This document shows positions 1 to 6,719 of a stretch of DNA of 64,000 bases, one piece after another. Below the pieces are notes generated by a model. It had not been told where the DNA came from, ran no database searches, and worked only from the letters and a program-made list of their open reading frames with translations. The position numbers and the translations under genes were made by a program. The stretch lies in NCBI GenBank assembly GCA_002862095.1, contig PHSQ01000002.1, forward strand, positions 434,001 through 498,000, written 5' to 3'. The stretch's first letter is position 1. The number at the start of each line of letters is the position of its first letter. This DNA is from Methylocystis sp. KS32. Its GTDB lineage: Bacteria; Pseudomonadota; Alphaproteobacteria; Rhizobiales; Beijerinckiaceae.

Positions 1-130
1 ATGGTGTTAATTACTTGCAGGCTCCGGTCCCTTACATTTTTGTAAGTCAAGAGGACGTCTCTAAGTTACGGGTGTCGTTCGAACAATACTGCAGGTAACT
101 CTGGGGACCGAAGCCGAGGTAAGACAGTTC

Positions 131-404
131 GAATTACGGTGACACGAATTACGAATTACGGAATTACGGTGACACGCCGGAATTACCAGAATTACGGTGA
201 CACGCCCGTATTTACCTTGTATCTGTTCTTGTATCTGTTCGATGCTACCGAGAGCATATGACCCGCAACGCCCGTATCGTTGTCCCCGGCCTTCCGCATC
301 ATGTCGCCCAGCGTGGCAATTGTCGCGCAACCGTGTTTTTCGAGGCGGGCGATTATGAGTTGTATCGGCTATTTAAAGGATAAAAACGGGCGTGTCACCG
401 TAAT
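131..404 (+). repeat. RAYT-derived mini-element, copy A, with terminal-repeat debris
   Basis: The left end AATTACGGTGACACGCCCGT starts at 190 and the inverted right end ACGGGCGTGTCACCGTAAT lies at 386-404, giving a ~215 bp unit. It carries a 41-codon fragment of a REP-associated tyrosine transposase. Bases 131-189 contain two further partial copies of the AATTACGGTGACAC end, as if earlier copies had been hit by later ones. Bases 1-130 show no gene. With the catalytic part missing, this must be non-autonomous. Confidence 0.8.
258..383 (+). pseudogene. N-terminal fragment of REP-associated tyrosine transposase (RAYT)
   Basis: The 41-residue reading frame starts MTRNARIVVPGLPHHVAQRG and ends after YRLFKG. 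This matches the conserved N-terminus of the IS200-like/RAYT (Y1_Tnp) family, which continues in intact members to the HUH and catalytic tyrosine motifs at total lengths of about 150-250 residues. Here the frame stops where the inverted right end of the element begins, so everything catalytic is deleted. Whether the 41-residue peptide is ever made is unknown; no good ribosome binding site precedes the ATG. Confidence 0.75.
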
Positions 405-421
405 ACGCGACGTCCATCGTG

Positions 422-1057
422 TTAGCCACAGATCTTTATTACGTTATCATGATTACGGCCCCAATCTTTAGATTGGGGAATCCCCATATATATTTGAAAT
501 CCAAGCCGCCTTATTAAGCCAGAGCAGTCCTTTTTAATGCTTTTTGTAACATTCTCTATTATTGTAAAAGGTTCATCCTTGTCTTTTGCTTCGCCATGAT
601 ACTTCAATATTCTGTTGAAAAATAAAAAGTCAAAGGCTGTCGAGTCAACCCAGTCAATCTCCTCGCTGTAGCCTGAAACCCAGGCCACATTAATTGGTTT
701 ATCGTAGAAATATCTAACCTTTTCCTCATCCAGAAACTGACAGGCTCCAAAGTGGATTCCAAAAAGATAGTAATTTTCCTTAACCTTCTGGAGGCATTTT
801 CGGATTTCATTACGTGATATTCTATCATCGTTATGCAAACATAGTCCATCATCAGAGCCGTGGCTATTTATTGAAATGTAGTAGTGTTGCAGGCCGCAGC
901 GTATAAAACCATCGTCGAAAGCAGCTTTGCTATTTATTGTCTCATAATGATATCCATGATGATCACCAAAATGAATGTCGGACAGAAGGTCGTAAATACC
1001 TCTAATCGACTTATTATCGGCGTCGCCCCACTTGCTTTCGATGACCGCTATACACAT
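422..1057 (-). CDS. DUF6642-like putative caspase-fold protein
   Basis: A 211-residue protein. The ATG at 1057 is chosen over the GTG two codons upstream because AGGAGG sits five bases before that ATG. It resembles DUF6642: a CIAVIES strand at the N-terminus, a histidine in NSHGSDDG near residue 66, a cysteine in HFGACQF near residue 105, and a VSGYSEEIDW motif near 128 that I recall as typical of the family. The His/Cys spacing after two predicted strands resembles caspase/CHAT-type cysteine peptidases; that link is my inference. The gene is clearly AT-richer than everything after 6 kb, which suggests recent transfer. It lies directly downstream of, and overlaps, a methyltransferase remnant, so a defence or cell-suicide role is possible but unproven. 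Confidence 0.6.
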   Translation of the reverse strand: MCIAVIESKWGDADNKSIRGIYDLLSDIHFGDHHGYHYETINSKAAFDDGFIRCGLQHYYISINSHGSDDGLCLHNDDRISRNEIRKCLQKVKENYYLFGIHFGACQFLDEEKVRYFYDKPINVAWVSGYSEEIDWVDSTAFDFLFFNRILKYHGEAKDKDEPFTIIENVTKSIKKDCSGLIRRLGFQIYMGIPQSKDWGRNHDNVIKICG

Positions 1058-1259
1058 CTGCACCTCCTAAATCACAAACATTAATCACCTCATCGGCGGG
1101 GTGATTAATGACTTTCACCACAATGCGTCCGCTCTTGGGCTTGGGAAACGGGTGGGAGACGTCTGAATAGAGACCCGCCCAAATTTCCTTGTCGATCTCG
1201 GCTCTGAGCGTCGTCTTAACCTTATACGTGCCATTCGCTTCCAGAATGTAAACGTGGAA
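1014..1259 (-). pseudogene. C-terminal remnant of a DNA methyltransferase-like protein (possibly type III Mod)
   Basis: The frame complementary to 1259-1014 encodes 81 residues containing KTTLRAEID, FPKPKSGRIVVKVINH and a final DEV segment. This resembles the extreme C-terminus of adenine-specific methyltransferases found with type III restriction systems, recalled from memory rather than searched. Upstream the frame is cut at 1260-1262 by an in-frame TAA formed at the junction with the GGTGACAC repeat cluster, so the start and catalytic domain are gone. Its last ~40 bases overlap the start of the DUF6642-like gene, consistent with a former operon. Confidence 0.4.
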
Positions 1260-1273
1260 TTACAATTACAATT

Positions 1274-1798
1274 CAATTACGGTGACACAATTACGCAATT
1301 ACAGTGACACGCCCGTATTTACCTTTAATTACGGGAATTACGGTGACACGCCCGTATTTACCTTATATCTGCTCGATGCTACCGAGAGTATATGGCCCGC
1401 ATCGAATTACGGTGACACGACCGTATTTACCTTGTATCTGTTCGATGCTACCGAGAGCATATGACCCGCAACGCCCGTATCGTTGTCCCCGGCCTTCCGC
1501 ATCATGTCGCCCAGCGTGGCAATTGTCGCGCAACCGTGTTTTTCGAGGCGGGCGATTATGAGTTGTATCGGCTATTTTTAAAGGGGAAAGACGAATTACG
1601 GTGACACGCCCGTATTTACCTTGTATCTGTTCGATGCTACCGAGAGCATATGACCCCCATCGCCCCTATCGTTGTCCCCGGCCTTCCGCGTCATGTCACC
1701 CAGCGTGGCAATCGTCGCGCAACCGTGTTTTCCGAGGCGGGCGATTATGAGTTGTATCGGCTATTTAAAGGGGAAAGACGGGCGTGTCACCGTAATTA
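1274..1798 (+). repeat. RAYT-derived mini-elements, nested copies B and C
   Basis: Left ends are at about 1302, 1336, 1404 and 1592. The 1336 unit is cut after 68 bp (at the GTATATGG start region) by the 1404 unit. The 1404 unit runs to 1593, where its right end is replaced by the left end of copy C. Copy C is complete, with the inverted right end at about 1779-1798. The 258-bp stretch 1336-1593 recurs without any difference at 5704-5961. Each unit carries the same 5' piece of a RAYT gene. Bases 1274-1335 are shorter fragments of the ends. Confidence 0.8.
1461..1604 (+). pseudogene. RAYT N-terminal fragment in copy B
   Basis: A 47-codon frame beginning MTRNARIVVPGLPHHVAQRG. It is identical to the copy A fragment up to YRLF, then shifted by two extra T bases so that it reads into the left end of copy C and stops at the TGA inside GGTGACAC. 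Catalytic motifs are absent. Confidence 0.7.
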
Positions 1799-1817
1799 CC
1801 GTAATTCCAAGAACTGA
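1650..1817 (+). pseudogene. RAYT N-terminal fragment in copy C (diverged)
   Basis: A 55-codon frame starting MTPIAPIVVPGLPRHVTQRG. It differs from the other fragments at several codons (HVTQRGNRRATVFSEAG), and its arginines match the usual RAYT consensus better, so it may be the older or independently derived copy. It reads through the right terminal repeat before stopping. Confidence 0.65.
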
Positions 1818-1872
1818 CTCTTGAGCCGTGAGGCAGTAGGCCGACCAGACTTCCGCATCATTGGCGCAATCG

Positions 1873-2163
1873 TCAGTCGAATTTGTGCGGCCATTGGCGT
1901 GCGCCGTGGAAGACCGCGAGAATCTCGACGTCCGCGTCACGCACGCGGTAAGGCGCGATGAAAGGCGTATCGACGACGACCAGCTCGCGCGTGCCGGGAA
2001 TGCGCCCTGCGCGCCCGATATGCGGGAAGGCCGCGAGATTGTCGGCTTGATCGAATATGGCGGTGACGATGCGCGCGGCGGCGGCGGGGGAACTGTCCTG
2101 CTTGATATAGTCGCCGATGGCTTCAAGGTCGCGCAGCGCCGGAGTTGTCCACCGCACTCTCAT
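1873..2163 (-). CDS. ParE/RelE-family toxin
   Basis: A 96-residue protein of the ParE/RelE superfamily. Visible signatures are the N-terminal WTTPALRDLEAIGDYI helix, the central FPHIGRAGRIPGTREL stretch, and YRVRDADVEILAVFHGARQWP at the C-terminus, where the family has its conserved basic and histidine residues. ParE toxins inhibit DNA gyrase and RelE toxins cut ribosome-bound mRNA; the sequence alone does not decide which. The start overlaps the upstream antitoxin stop by four bases (ATGA), the normal translationally coupled order. It looks intact despite repeat clusters on both sides. Confidence 0.85.
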   Translation of the reverse strand: MRVRWTTPALRDLEAIGDYIKQDSSPAAAARIVTAIFDQADNLAAFPHIGRAGRIPGTRELVVVDTPFIAPYRVRDADVEILAVFHGARQWPHKFD

Positions 2164-2399
2164 GATTTGAGTGCGAACTTCTTCCTAACGCGCGCCAGCT
2201 CGTCATCGCTGGCGAAGTCACCGATCTCGGCGGCGGCGAGCCCGGCTTCGGTCTTGCCGAGCTGCCACGCGTTGAGCGCGACAAAATCCTCGACGGCGCG
2301 GGTGACGAGCCAGTTGCGGGAGCGGTCGGTTTTTTCGGCGAGGTGGTCGAGCGCGGTCAGCGTCGACTCGTCGAGACGAACTGTGAAAGGCGCGGGCAT
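2160..2399 (-). CDS. Ribbon-helix-helix antitoxin (ParD/CopG-like)
   Basis: A 79-residue protein with an N-terminal ribbon-helix-helix: the strand PFTVRLDESTLTALDHLAEK and a helix pair with RSRNWLVTRAVEDFV, about residues 3-45. It ends in an acidic and basic tail (DDELARVRKKFAL) that in this family wraps around the toxin. As the first gene of the pair it should neutralise the ParE-like toxin and repress its own promoter. The operator is not identified; upstream bases 2400-2450 are the likely promoter. Confidence 0.82.
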   Translation of the reverse strand: MPAPFTVRLDESTLTALDHLAEKTDRSRNWLVTRAVEDFVALNAWQLGKTEAGLAAAEIGDFASDDELARVRKKFALKS

Positions 2400-2483
2400 G
2401 GCAGGCGTTACTCGTAAGGCATGGTGCGATCAGATTCATATGTAGTCTACGTGAACCAACCCGTCCCTTTCAAGGGGCATAAA

Positions 2484-2849
2484 ATGTCTGATAATGTCCT
2501 TTATCTTATATTCGGAATCATCCAGATGCGGGTCAGTTTCGACAGCAATGCATGGGAGGAAATTTTTCGGTCCGACGCTCTGGAATGCGTCGCCATTCGC
2601 GACGCACTCGCGACGAGGAAGGTCGAGGGACTGATTTGCGAGACGGCTTTCCGCATTGAGGCTGTCCGCAAGAAAGATCGCCTTGCCTATTTTGACGAGC
2701 CTCGCATGGAGGTGTCGTTCCCTGGGAGCCTTGTTCAAAGAGACGGCGAGCCGCACATTCATTTGATGTCGATAGGCCCGGACGACCGGCAGCATCCGGG
2801 ACTCCCGGAAGTTCAGGCTGAGCGTCTAAACTTGGCGGTGTCAAATTAG
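2484..2849 (+). pseudogene. PIN-like domain protein, 3' truncated by a mini-element
   Basis: The frame starts at 2484 with AAGGGG seven bases ahead of the ATG; an internal start at 2526 (MRVSFDSNAWEEIF) is also possible. The segment FDSNAWEEIF followed by VEGLICETAFRIEAV resembles the N-terminal strand and acidic residue of PIN-like nucleases from hypothetical alphaproteobacterial proteins that are roughly twice this length. Coding ends at a TAG (2847-2849) inside the left end of element copy D, so the protein has lost its C-terminal half. It is probably non-functional. Confidence 0.5.
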
Positions 2850-2989
2850 GGTGACACGCCCGTATTTACCTTATATCTCGCATCATGTCACCCAGCGTGA
2901 CAATCGTCGCGCAACCGTGTTTTTCGAGGCGGGCGATTATAAGTTGTATCGGCAATTTAAAGGGGTAAGACGGGCGTGTCACCGTAATT
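2844..2989 (+). repeat. RAYT-derived mini-element, copy D (internally deleted)
   Basis: The left end AATTAGGGTGACACGCCCGT carries one change in the consensus, and the right end ACGGGCGTGTCACCGTAATT is intact. About 65 bases around the transposase start codon are missing: the sequence jumps from the TTATATCT leader to CATCATGTCACCCAGCG. At 146 bp it is the smallest copy. It is followed by three short CGTAATTC repeats up to about 3015. Confidence 0.75.
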
Positions 2990-3064
2990 CCGTAATTCGT
3001 AATTCCCGTAATTCCTGGTCAACCACCAACGCGTCGAAAGGGCGCGGCGGCAAGCCGATTTCCC

Positions 3065-4033
3065 TCAACGGCTCGCGCTGGCGGGAAGAAACGTGTCGGA
3101 ACGCATCTGCTTGAGGCTGGCTCCCTTCAGATAAAGATCGCGTTTGAGACGGCCCACCAATTTCTCTCCTCCGCAGAGGAAGAACGCGGTGTGGGGGAGC
3201 GCGTCCTCATACTCCAGCGCCGCCGTGGCCACGTCGCCGCCCTGAGGGCCGGGATCGCTAAGCACGCGGGAGACGTAGCTGAGGTTCGCGTGCTTCTCCG
3301 TTAGCGCCGCTAAATGATCGTGCAGATACAGTCCGTCGCGCTCTCGTGCCCCGTGATAGAGCCGGATCGGCCCGCGGTGCCCGCGCCTCAGAGCGTCCCG
3401 TAGCACGCCGATCAGAGGCGCCAAGCCTGTGCCCGATCCGATCAGCGTCATCGGCTGATCCGGATCGACGCCTTCGTAAATGCACGTTCCTAAAGGACCC
3501 GCGATATGAAGCCGACGGCGGGGCGCAAGCTCTTCGGCGATGAATCTGCTCATCCTTCCGCCCGGGTGAAGACGAATGTGGAGCTCGACGAAGGGATCTT
3601 CCTCTGGCAGGCTTGCGATCGAGTAATGCCGTCCGAGTCCGTCGCCGGCGATGAGCTCGAGAAATTGTCCCGGGCGATAGGCGAAGTCCGCGTCGTGTTC
3701 CAGGCGCAGCCGCACTACTTCGCCCGAAAGTCGATCTATCGAGTGAACGACGGCCTCCGCTCGGCTCTCGGCTTCTTGCGCCGGAACGACGGTCAGGGGC
3801 GTATCGGGCACGCAGACGCAGGCCAGAAAATAACCCAGCGCCTTCTGCGCTTCGCTGAGCCCCTGCTGCGCGGCGGCCGGAGGTTTTCCTTCGACCGCGC
3901 GATGCATGCAGCTTTGGCAGACTCCGGACCGGCACGAGTGAGGCGCGTCGATTTCCGCGCGCAGCAGCGCGGAAAGGACGTCCTCCCCCGGCTCGATCTC
4001 TATGGCTGCTTCTCGATAAGTCAGCAGCGTCAT
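3065..4033 (-). CDS. 2Fe-2S ferredoxin / FAD-NAD(P) oxidoreductase fusion
   Basis: A 322-residue flavoprotein reductase. Residues 1-90 are a plant-type ferredoxin domain with cysteines in CRSGVCQSC plus one in YFLACVC. Residues ~95-190 form the FAD domain with the RxYS-type motif RHYSIAS, and residues ~195-310 the NAD(P) domain with GSGTGLAPLIG and a terminal CGG. Such proteins pass electrons from NAD(P)H through FAD and 2Fe-2S to a partner. It starts 10 bp after the truncated-haemoglobin stop, so the likely partner is that globin: together they would do what flavohaemoglobins do in one chain (NO dioxygenase or peroxide chemistry). That function is inferred from context only. Confidence 0.85.
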   Translation of the reverse strand: MTLLTYREAAIEIEPGEDVLSALLRAEIDAPHSCRSGVCQSCMHRAVEGKPPAAAQQGLSEAQKALGYFLACVCVPDTPLTVVPAQEAESRAEAVVHSIDRLSGEVVRLRLEHDADFAYRPGQFLELIAGDGLGRHYSIASLPEEDPFVELHIRLHPGGRMSRFIAEELAPRRRLHIAGPLGTCIYEGVDPDQPMTLIGSGTGLAPLIGVLRDALRRGHRGPIRLYHGARERDGLYLHDHLAALTEKHANLSYVSRVLSDPGPQGGDVATAALEYEDALPHTAFFLCGGEKLVGRLKRDLYLKGASLKQMRSDTFLPASASR

Positions 4034-4043
4034 TCGTATGGCC

Positions 4044-4409
4044 TCAGCGATTCAGGACATCGTTGCGAACGGAATTGGCCAGTGCCGCGACTTCTTGCAC
4101 TTCCATTTCAGCGACGCCGAGTTGGCGAAGCGTTGTCGATAGATTTTCGACGACTGCATCGACATGCATATCATTGAGGCCCTTCGCGACGAGCTTCTCA
4201 TGCGCTTTGCGCATGTCTGTGCCGGTGTATTTGTTGGGTCCGCCGAACGCCATGGTCAAAAAAGCTTTTTGCTTTGCGAGCTGGTCTTCCATGTTCACGC
4301 CCTCGAAGAAGCGCGCGATGCGCCCGTCGGCGAGAACCCTGCGATAAAAAAGATCGACCGCGGCATCCACCGCCTTTTCACCACCGAGACGCTCGTAAAG
4401 ACTAGACAT
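4044..4409 (-). CDS. Group I truncated haemoglobin
   Basis: A 121-residue 2/2 haemoglobin. It starts SLYERLGGEKAVDAAVDLFY, contains the TrHbN-type MAFGGPNKYTG stretch near residue 60, and has the proximal histidine in AHEKLV near residue 74. AGGAGG seven bases upstream fixes the ATG at 4409 rather than a start ten codons earlier. Family members bind O2 and NO and often detoxify NO. It is the third gene of a sigma factor / anti-sigma / globin / reductase set, so expression is probably stress-induced. Confidence 0.9.
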   Translation of the reverse strand: MSSLYERLGGEKAVDAAVDLFYRRVLADGRIARFFEGVNMEDQLAKQKAFLTMAFGGPNKYTGTDMRKAHEKLVAKGLNDMHVDAVVENLSTTLRQLGVAEMEVQEVAALANSVRNDVLNR

Positions 4410-4493
4410 GCATATTCCTCCTGTAGGCCCATCGATCATCTATCGCGACCGGTTTCCTTCACACGTCCTTTAGAGGCGCGGGCGAGAGGATTC

Positions 4494-4742
4494 TTACTTC
4501 GAGACGTCGGATTTTTTTTCGGACAGCACGACTTCGAGAAGACCGAGGTAAACCTCTTCGCACTCGGGGCACTGGTGCATGTGATGACGCACTTCGGGAA
4601 GGCGCGCCGCGGCGTCATCACCCGCGGCTTCCAGCTCGGCATAGCCCGGCAAACGATCGAAATAATCGCTGCACGACATCTCCTCGCCGGCTTTCGCCGC
4701 GAAGATGGTGTCGATCAGGCGTCCGAACTCTTTCCGTTTCAT
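4494..4742 (-). CDS. Putative zinc-finger anti-sigma factor
   Basis: An 82-residue protein with an N-terminal helix (KRKEFGRLIDTIF) and a C-terminal HHMHQCPECEEVY zinc motif (H-x3-C-x2-C), the ZAS signature of class I anti-sigma factors. There is no membrane segment, so it would be a soluble sensor like the RsrA/ChrR types. It starts 22 bp downstream of the ECF sigma gene, the usual arrangement, and should sequester that sigma factor until oxidative or nitrosative attack on the zinc site. The ATG at 4742 is used because GAGAAGCGA precedes it. Confidence 0.72.
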   Translation of the reverse strand: MKRKEFGRLIDTIFAAKAGEEMSCSDYFDRLPGYAELEAAGDDAAARLPEVRHHMHQCPECEEVYLGLLEVVLSEKKSDVSK

Positions 4743-4764
4743 GCTCGCTTCTCGTCGCTGACCA

Positions 4765-5457
4765 TTAGACGCCGTGAAACAAAGGATTCTTACCATCCTC
4801 TAGATAGGGTCGCTCGGGCCGAGGCGTATCGAAAATGGCGATGAGCTCGCGATGTGTGACGCCCTTCGACAGGAGGGCCGCCTTGAGCCGCTTGCGCGCA
4901 TCGTGGATGAGCTTATAGAGGCTGTTTCGATTGGTTCCCAGCCATTCAGCGACAAGATCCAGCGGCATGTCCTGGAACGCATGCGCAATTAATGCCTTGC
5001 GTTGCAAAGGGGTCAGCGAGGTTTCGATCAGCTCGCTCAGCAATGACCAGGCTTGCCGTTGCTCGAGGCTACGCTCAGGCCCGGGATTGTCGATCGGCCA
5101 AGGCGGCATGGCGTTGCCGAGGCCCGCCTCTTCGATTGCCGTTGCTTGCCAACGGTGTCGCCGCAGCTCGCTGAGGGTGACGCGGATGGCAATCGAATAG
5201 GCCCATGTGGTGAATTGGCTGTCGCCACGGAATTGATCCAGCTTGGACTGAATGAGGAGAACGGACTCTTGCGCGCATTCTTCCGTCAGATCGTCGTGTC
5301 CAACATAGATCATGCGCGCGTTGGAAGCGCTTTTCCGCGACAGGAAATTCGAAATGGCGCGCCTCAACAATTGCCGCAGCTCCTTGATAGCCTTCTCCTG
5401 ACTTTGTCCTCCCTCGCGTAGAGCGCTCAGCCACTCAATGTTGGATCTTGTCGCCAC
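4765..5457 (-). CDS. ECF-type RNA polymerase sigma factor
   Basis: A 230-residue sigma-70 family protein. Region 2 spans about residues 55-125 (LTEECAQESVLLIQSKLDQF, FTTWAYSIAIRVT) and region 4 about 145-200 (LTPLQRKALIAHAFQDM then LVAEWLGTNRNSLYKLIHDA, a helix-turn-helix). The start is a GTG at 5457 preceded by AGGGG. It heads a four-gene operon with its zinc anti-sigma, a truncated globin and a ferredoxin reductase. Autoregulation is expected but no promoter motif was confirmed in 5458-5660, which contains no other supported gene. Confidence 0.88.
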   Translation of the reverse strand: MATRSNIEWLSALREGGQSQEKAIKELRQLLRRAISNFLSRKSASNARMIYVGHDDLTEECAQESVLLIQSKLDQFRGDSQFTTWAYSIAIRVTLSELRRHRWQATAIEEAGLGNAMPPWPIDNPGPERSLEQRQAWSLLSELIETSLTPLQRKALIAHAFQDMPLDLVAEWLGTNRNSLYKLIHDARKRLKAALLSKGVTHRELIAIFDTPRPERPYLEDGKNPLFHGV

Positions 5458-5662
5458 CGATGCCCCTGGATTTGACGATTAGCCACCACGCTCTCCCTGC
5501 AGCCTTCATCGACGAAGGTCAAAAGGTGCAGGATAATCTCCGGCTTGCAGCTTGGGGCACGATTCCCCTGCTCTCGATGACCAGTCCGAATCTACAGAGT
5601 GCCGCCGGGAAGGCGCAAGTCCCAGCTCGCTTCGCCCCGAAGACCCTGGGATGAGCCCATCT

Positions 5663-5977
5663 AAGAATTACGAATTACGGTGACACAATTACGGCAATTA
5701 CGCAATTACGGTGACACGCCCGTATTTACCTTATATCTGCTCGATGCTACCGAGAGTATATGGCCCGCATCGAATTACGGTGACACGACCGTATTTACCT
5801 TGTATCTGTTCGATGCTACCGAGAGCATATGACCCGCAACGCCCGTATCGTTGTCCCCGGCCTTCCGCATCATGTCGCCCAGCGTGGCAATTGTCGCGCA
5901 ACCGTGTTTTTCGAGGCGGGCGATTATGAGTTGTATCGGCTATTTTTAAAGGGGAAAGACGGGCGTGCCACCATAAT
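5663..5977 (+). repeat. RAYT-derived composite mini-element, copy E
   Basis: Bases 5663-5703 are debris of the AATTACGGTGACAC end. From 5704 the sequence is a 68-bp truncated unit joined to a fuller unit, identical over 258 bp to 1336-1593, so this two-part composite has been copied as one piece. The right end at 5959-5977 (ACGGGCGTGCCACCATAAT) has two changes from the consensus. It separates the sigma-factor operon from pabC. Confidence 0.8.
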
Positions 5978-6005
5978 ACCCATAATACCACAGACGTTCA
6001 CATAA
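5829..6005 (+). pseudogene. RAYT N-terminal fragment in copy E
   Basis: A 58-codon frame beginning MTRNARIVVPGLPHHVAQRG. It is identical to the copy B fragment through the YRLFLKGKD region and then reads through the right terminal repeat into flanking DNA. It has none of the downstream catalytic motifs. Confidence 0.65.
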
Positions 6006-6047
6006 ACAGCGGGGCGCAACCATCTTTGTGGGTGCGTGACATCTGAG

Positions 6048-6719
6048 CTAAGCTTTAAATTGTGCGCCCGCAAGCCTCGCGCGGACCAAGCCCCGCACCG
6101 AATTGCCCATGAGGAAATCGACGCCGATAAAATCGGAGATCCGCAGCACGGCCTCCCTCGCCCTGCCCTCGCGCAAGAGGCTGGCGCGCAGCGTCCCAGG
6201 CAGGAGCCCACTTGAACCCGGCGGGGTCAGGAGCATTCCGGCGCGCTCAAGAAAAACATTGGCGCGCGCGCCCTCGCAGACTTCGTCCCGCTCGTTCAGA
6301 AACAGAACCTCGTCGGCGCCGGAGGCGGCGAGTTCGCCCTCGTAAATTTCCCGCCGAGTCGTCTTATGGCGCAGCAGCGGTTCGTTCGAATTGAACCGCT
6401 CTTTCGCCACGGCGACGCGCCACACAGTCCGCGGCGGAATCGGCTCGATCTCAAAGACGCTGGTCTCGAACGCGCCGCCGGGATGCAGAACGAACCGCAC
6501 GCGCAGTCTCGTCGGCGGCGGCGAAACCTGCACCGCCTCTTCGAGCGCGGCTCTCGCGCTGTCGATATCGCAGGGAAACCCGAGTTCCGTCGCCGACCGC
6601 CGAAGCCGCGCGAGATGCGAATCAAGGAGAAAAAAACATTCGGCCGGCGTCCACAAAAGCGTTTCGATAAGTCCGAAACCGCTCAGTCGCCCGTCAGGAA
6701 TCGCGCCTTTATCAGACAT
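6048..6719 (-). CDS. pabC: Aminodeoxychorismate lyase / class IV aminotransferase
   Basis: A 223-residue PLP enzyme of fold type IV. It carries GLIETLLW near the start, the PLP lysine in RHKTTRREIYEG, and the EVCEGARANVFL and GLLPGTLRASLL blocks of the family. It converts 4-amino-4-deoxychorismate to p-aminobenzoate for folate. The start MSDKGAIPDG at 6719 overlaps the end of pabB by 37 bp, a tight coupling common in Rhizobiales where pabB and pabC are adjacent. No separate glutamine amidotransferase (pabA) is seen nearby. Confidence 0.85.
   Translation of the reverse strand: MSDKGAIPDGRLSGFGLIETLLWTPAECFFLLDSHLARLRRSATELGFPCDIDSARAALEEAVQVSPPPTRLRVRFVLHPGGAFETSVFEIEPIPPRTVWRVAVAKERFNSNEPLLRHKTTRREIYEGELAASGADEVLFLNERDEVCEGARANVFLERAGMLLTPPGSSGLLPGTLRASLLREGRAREAVLRISDFIGVDFLMGNSVRGLVRARLAGAQFKA

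Follow-up and report, generated by a model that had tools for sequence, protein, structure and literature searches.

Short repeats that share inverted ends and enclose the first codons of a transposase gene are clustered in a stretch of 64,000 nucleotides of Methylocystis sp. KS32 (contig PHSQ01000002.1; this whole stretch is called the window, and coordinates are window positions unless a contig is named). We conclude that these repeats are very probably miniature inverted-repeat transposable elements (MITEs) of a Y1/HUH tyrosine transposon that is flanked by terminal inverted repeats (TIRs), a TIRtron, and that the 37 codons retained in them are passive cargo of a founder deletion. Judged from the sequences, amplification in trans by the intact transposase is the most likely origin of the many copies. 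An earlier note on the window had described inverse-paired ends and a shared 5' gene piece at five sites and had derived the elements from a gene of the RAYT type (REP-associated tyrosine transposase, where REP is repetitive extragenic palindrome). Both the ends and the piece were located at these sites, and the derivation is supported by a parent with the same ends and by a junction common to the copies.

The parent transposon and the founder deletion

Pfam Y1_Tnp has a single match in the KS32 genome, on contig C3 at about 22.4-23.1 kb, and this is the full-length gene with matching ends that the earlier note had proposed to look for and whose absence it had named as refuting its view. Its product (P0001, 226 aa) scores 35.2 bits against PF01797, for which the cut-off is 23, and matches the TnpAREP chain 4er8 with an E value of 7e-4; NHVHL and YVALNP are present by eye. 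The parent element is ~765 bp long and has the same left and right ends as the mini-element, the left 167 bp being 95% identical and the right 36 bp 97% identical between the two. All 26 near-full mini-elements consist of the left 167 bp of the parent fused to its right ~36 bp at the same junction and therefore go back to one founder, which argues for a single deletion of 562 bp as the event that gave rise to the family. One base at the junction is ambiguous. As the deletion shifts the frame past codon 37, only 37 codons are gene-derived, and the codons beyond 37 in the open frames are the 3' tail of the parent read out of frame. The 5' gene piece is thus present as had been claimed, but homology stops at codon 37 (CGG) and not at codon ~41. 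The mini-element consensus is one synonymous base apart from the first 37 codons of the parent and the peptide is equal.

With up to 3 mismatches allowed, the 20-base end occurs 77 times in the genome, in 39 cases forward and in 38 reverse, and the reversed control 0 times. When the complete copy at 1594-1797 was used as BLAST query against 13 regions fetched around all the end matches, there were 34 mini-element hits that span 60 or more bases of the query, 26 near-full (189-215 bp) and 8 partial, including the copy at 2844-2989; one further hit, the 35th, corresponds to the left part of the parent, shorter hits were excluded from the counts, and because the regions were chosen by end matches, copies without a recognisable end may have escaped. 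The copies are spread over five contigs of KS32 (C1, C2, C3, C6 and C7). N-terminal and C-terminal matches to the gene numbered 31 and 1, respectively, in KS32, and in the other 22 genomes searched, which were reached through 24 of the 80 related loci described below, the two counts were equal or 1-2 apart (e.g. 15/16, 12/12 and 6/8), with G451 (3/1) having the largest N-terminal excess. In a survey of 397 genomes of the family, 28 had an N-terminal and 40 a C-terminal match; the N-terminal count of KS32 is 18 and not 31 in this survey as fewer candidates were scored.

The mini-element was found in one of the 39 genomes of the genus searched, and the 20-base end, with 1 mismatch allowed, in one of 398 genomes of a phylum sample. 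A genome that is probably that of Methylocapsa sp. S129 (see below) belongs to the same family as KS32. This distribution suggests, without proving it, that the mini-element family entered from outside the genus and was amplified afterwards. Plasmids gave no match to the family. Viral spread was considered upon finding one exact 18-mer in a viral contig, but by eye it lies in an apparently unrelated coding stretch and was taken as chance.

The retained coding piece

Changes among the 26 near-full copies were counted on a parsimony tree that includes the parent and ignores recombination between copies; this may raise the counts, yet should leave the comparison of codon positions unbiased. Codon positions 1, 2 and 3 had 29, 32 and 19 changes, respectively, on 37 sites each. 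There were 80 changes on the 111 coding sites compared to 21 on the 30 noncoding leader sites, and in the other parts the left end (26 bases) had 21 changes and the right-hand part (41 sites) 35. Neutral change would give synonymous, nonsynonymous and stop variants at 27/71/2%; among the 59 distinct variants relative to the consensus, the numbers were 11, 47 and 1, respectively. As a control, the same codons of eight full-length relatives were compared to the parent, and the synonymous/nonsynonymous counts were 13/5, 12/5, 17/9, 13/8, 13/10, 13/10, 20/8 and 10/11; synonymous changes are in excess in seven of the eight, the exception being L076 (10/11). The codon piece is thus under selection in the gene and not detectably so in the mini-element, although selection may still act on a few source copies alone.

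The earlier note had raised the possibility that the peptide is made and had proposed to compare synonymous with nonsynonymous changes among the copies, neutral decay being named beforehand as evidence against its view, and the pattern found is a neutral one. It had also observed that most copies are open from the ATG, and this holds genome-wide, the frame running uninterrupted from the ATG to the end of codon 37 in 19 of the 26 near-full copies. These open frames would agree with selection on a small peptide, such as a truncated transposase with a regulatory role in transposition, and so would a consensus peptide equal to the first 37 residues of the parent and the GAGAG stretch ahead of the ATG. 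However, there is no synonymous excess (11 synonymous versus 48 others), seven of the 26 frames are broken, three by loss of the start codon and four by a frameshift or stop, the window copy at 2844-2989 has no ATG, and the mini-elements of Methylocapsa sp. S129 (see below) have no coding piece at all. We therefore regard a selected peptide as most improbable. A probable reason why 19 frames are still open is that the median pairwise distance among the copies is only 7.6%. A reading frame that is repeated more than 20 times thus appears to be decaying cargo, and a false lead is thereby removed.

The other function suggested for the piece was that of an RNA or DNA recognition signal. As a DNA strand the 204 nt fold at -43.6 kcal/mol (z -5.2), with the inverted ends as the main stem, but none of the 51 predicted pairs had compensatory changes in 19 aligned copies, and Rfam had nothing in window positions 1-6200 at E up to 1. 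A signal needed in cis would be consistent with end-like motifs inside the piece (TGTCACC, TGTCCCC and CGCCCGTAT), of which TGTCACC falls within the HHVTQ codons of some copies, and with the truncation points clustered nearby. In the 204-bp element, seven breakpoints of partial copies lie between positions 69 and 94, a post hoc observation with a simulated P of about 0.004; one duplicate (439704), a 29-bp stub and a left junction at 35 were omitted from the test, and a single event may account for two of the seven. Against such a signal, TGTCACC is at its site in 10 of 61 relatives where 5.1 are expected and TGTCCCC in 0 of 24 where 0.4 are expected, CATGTCACC is not kept at its site in 12 of the 26 near-full copies, and S129 has six mini-elements with the same ends that do without the piece. 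Taken with the lack of covariation, this makes a cis signal improbable, if somewhat less so than the peptide. A conserved internal DNA motif was likewise rejected as weak at best.

Class of the transposon and related elements

Relatives were taken as the best 80 of at least 561 related loci, 74 of which have enough flank; the closest among the matches listed is a transposase of Methylocapsa sp. S129 (80% identical). GG[TG]GACA occurs upstream in 48 and TGTC[AC]CC downstream in 41 of the 74, with both in 29, whereas in 2080 control windows the upstream and downstream motifs occur in 1.9% and 2.5%, respectively. The corresponding sequence here, GGTGACAC, differs in one of eight positions from the motif GGGGWSAS of the TIR-associated tyrosine transposases (TIRYT/TIRtrons), the group described by Di Nocera et al. 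2013 (PMC3733652), and 11 of the 48 relatives with the upstream motif have an exact match. Judging from the passages of PMC6006769 on its subclasses, the TIRYT group probably corresponds to subclass 2.1.

Like the TIRYTs in the passages of PMC3733652, the parent has a Y1_Tnp protein with the HUH motif and the catalytic Tyr, the gene of which lies between long terminal inverted repeats unrelated to GTAG REPs, and TIR copies found as dimers and clusters are also described there. What differs is that the KS32 family is internally deleted, keeps 37 codons and has 26 near-full copies, a form that does not appear in those passages. A RAYT in the strict sense would have a GT(A/G)G head with a palindrome flanking the gene on both sides, and this was not found here; no GTAG head was seen by eye in the ends of mini-element or parent, and the parent protein scores 64.2 bits against NCBIfam REP_Tyr_transpos, below the cut-off of 80. 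The parent therefore fits the TIRYT/TIRtrons better than the RAYTs of GTAG REPs, and of the RAYT frame of the earlier note the RAYT-type gene stands, whereas the ends belong with the terminal inverted repeats of TIRYTs and have no GTAG-tagged palindrome.

The mini-element itself, at ~204 bp, with terminal inverted repeats and without functional coding capacity, has the makeup of a MITE, that is, a prokaryotic element of 70-300 bp which needs a transposase in trans. Unlike the most studied prokaryotic MITEs, which as far as described in PMC2817692 relate to DDE elements, it goes back to a Y1/HUH element, and a target duplication was looked for and not found. It shares with the REPINs, as these are described in parts of PMC3116915 and PMC2817692, inverted ends, a non-autonomous nature with presumed movement in trans by a Y1 transposase, and a proposed origin from the flanks of an IS200-like element. 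It is, however, not a hairpin of two inverted GTAG REPs, since its long in silico stem is formed by ends that are not GTAG and carry no GTAG-tagged palindrome. Elements of the IS200/IS605 family, for example IS608, have no terminal inverted repeats according to the relevant part of PMC2817692, and use subterminal hairpins; the same Y1 HUH chemistry is expected here, but inverted ends are present and the mini-element ends, taken in isolation, form no notable hairpin.

The parent gene is single-copy in KS32. Two other genomes, however, hold duplicates of related genes in which each unit has its own ends, unlike the RAYTs as described in PMC3116915 (see below). G442 has two full-length 778-bp units, 90% identical, that start with ATTACGGTGACA and end with TGTCACCGTAAT / TGTCACCGTAATCC. 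G450 has a pair of 736-bp units, 89% identical, that start with ATTGCGGTGACA and end with TGTCACCGTAAT / TGTCACCGTAATTG, and further pairs (76-92% alike) with a common left end in which the right end is not always reached. Full units duplicated between the same limits suggest present or past movement of the full element itself. In S129 there are three copies 85-91% alike (L203, L204 and L205) and one more that is 75-83% alike, together with six 85-bp elements, 96-100% alike, that have the same ends and no coding piece. An independent deletion derivative in G442, with two copies 86% alike, keeps ~285 bp of the left end and gene start. A search with an exact pattern detected short forms of 46-93 bp in six of 23 genomes (six each in G435 and G444, two in G456, and one each in G442, G448 and G451), and the same search found none in the KS32 genome. 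In G769 (L240, C1:3105843-3107100) an intact related transposase gene is preceded by two extra left ends with gene starts in addition to its own, and three right ends come after it; the left pieces are 94-99% alike. Such nesting could generate internal deletions, as each outer copy would lack only its middle.

The findings bear on how REPINs arise from transposons. In the part of PMC3116915 that deals with RAYTs, these are described as single-copy and apparently not self-mobile. The group related to the KS32 parent has full units duplicated with their ends and deletion derivatives of several sizes with similar ends. We offer tentatively, as a possibility that we do not favor, that a REPIN-like element is being born here, in steps from a self-mobile TIRtron (~765 bp) to the 204-bp coding mini-element and on to 146 bp in the window and the 85-bp coding-free form in Methylocapsa, with deletions that may come via repeated self-insertion as in G769. 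The remaining interest is evolutionary and lies in the series from full TIRtron through coding miniature to short miniature, along with the stacked ends, and the sizes provide a natural test set for the parts needed by a Y1/HUH transposase. We found no report of an internally deleted RAYT or TIRYT repeat that keeps the gene start in a partial search of the open-licence literature without supplements, by which absence in print is not established.

Insertion, duplication and the copies in the window

A likely course of events is that the intact parent transposase recognises the ends of the mini-element, aided by the long stem of a single-stranded copy, and that the element is inserted next to a TTAC-like sequence without target duplication, the 37 codons travelling along. 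TTAC is directly before 26 of the 48 upstream motifs in the relatives, and at the left flank of the KS32 elements it is reminiscent of the IS608 target. No target duplication above chance was seen in 25 oriented copies with the limits as tried. New copies would often land beside or into older ones, probably because the ends carry TTAC/GTAA, and this would give rise to clusters and to stacked and truncated ends.

Several observations weigh against a family of MITEs spread by transposition. An additional core motif lies less than or equal to 60 bp away in only 15 of the 26 copies, and the isolated mini-element ends fold no better than shuffles (z -0.66 and -0.12). No empty site was found in the three regions tried, with comparisons in 39 genomes and in 9 and 18 chosen genomes, the relatives of the genus having no synteny across the insertion. 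Some excess of gene starts is found elsewhere too, with 3/1 in G451 and 10/7 in G641, the latter having the highest N-terminal count after KS32 among the 397 genomes. Finally, some copies were clearly duplicated together with their flanks and hence not all are separate transpositions: a 1488-bp block at C6:661785-663272 recurs at C6:789056-790543 with 4 bases different, and a 417-bp unit is in tandem on C3 (C3:20365-21399; L034 2366-3400). These duplications are what would be expected if the repeats were only remnants of recombination and segmental duplication, with no transposition. However, the flanks of most copies differ and the change starts at the element ends, a search of 38 further genomes of the genus did not turn up the family, and other genomes have entire related elements in duplicate, with these same limits. 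Duplication alone is thus very unlikely, and spread of the MITE by transposition is preferred.

The window has five element sites along with truncated left ends (Table 1). The earlier note placed all copies in the first 6 kb, and indeed past position 6200 there is no TTACGGTGACA or TGTCACCGTAA and a single looser GGTGACA/TGTCACC match. The 258 bp at 1336-1593 are identical to 5704-5961, which makes these one duplicated array and not two separate insertions. Stubs of 29, 69 and 189 bp stand before one complete copy, and the 146-bp copy at 2844-2989 represents secondary shrinkage within the window.

Table 1. Mini-element copies and solo ends in the window
Feature	Position	Strand	
Stacked solo left-end copies upstream of the first element	132..181	+	
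Mini-element copy 1 with internal duplication of 12 bp; open frame 258-383	190..404	+	
Solo end from 1275 and 29-bp left-end stub 1297-1325	1275..1325	+	
Partial copy, 69-bp left end, cut off by the next left end	1336..1404	+	
Mini-element copy without right end	1405..1593	+	
Complete 204-bp mini-element, type copy; gene-derived codons 1-37 at 1650-1760	1594..1797	+	
Mini-element with extra 58-bp deletion joining 2844-2878 to 2879-2989; ATG lost	2844..2989	+	
Solo left end	5673..5687	+	
Partial copy, 69-bp left end	5704..5772	+	
Complete mini-element copy; open frame starts at 5829	5773..5977	+	

As to the duplicated segments outside the window, the 1488-bp block on C6 begins at a mini-element right end and stops where a ~940-bp repeat ends, near-identical copies of which occur at several other places in the genome. 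The 417-bp unit on C3 consists of a mini-element and another dispersed repeat (gtcattgcgagcgtagcgaagcaatcc), and its tandem arrangement places three mini-elements about 1 kb ahead of the parent gene. On C7, a mini-element is split into a left and a right part, with breakpoints at 71 and 78, which are separated by 1.4 kb and permuted in order (C7:243188-243258 and C7:244626-244752); this suggests a rearrangement.

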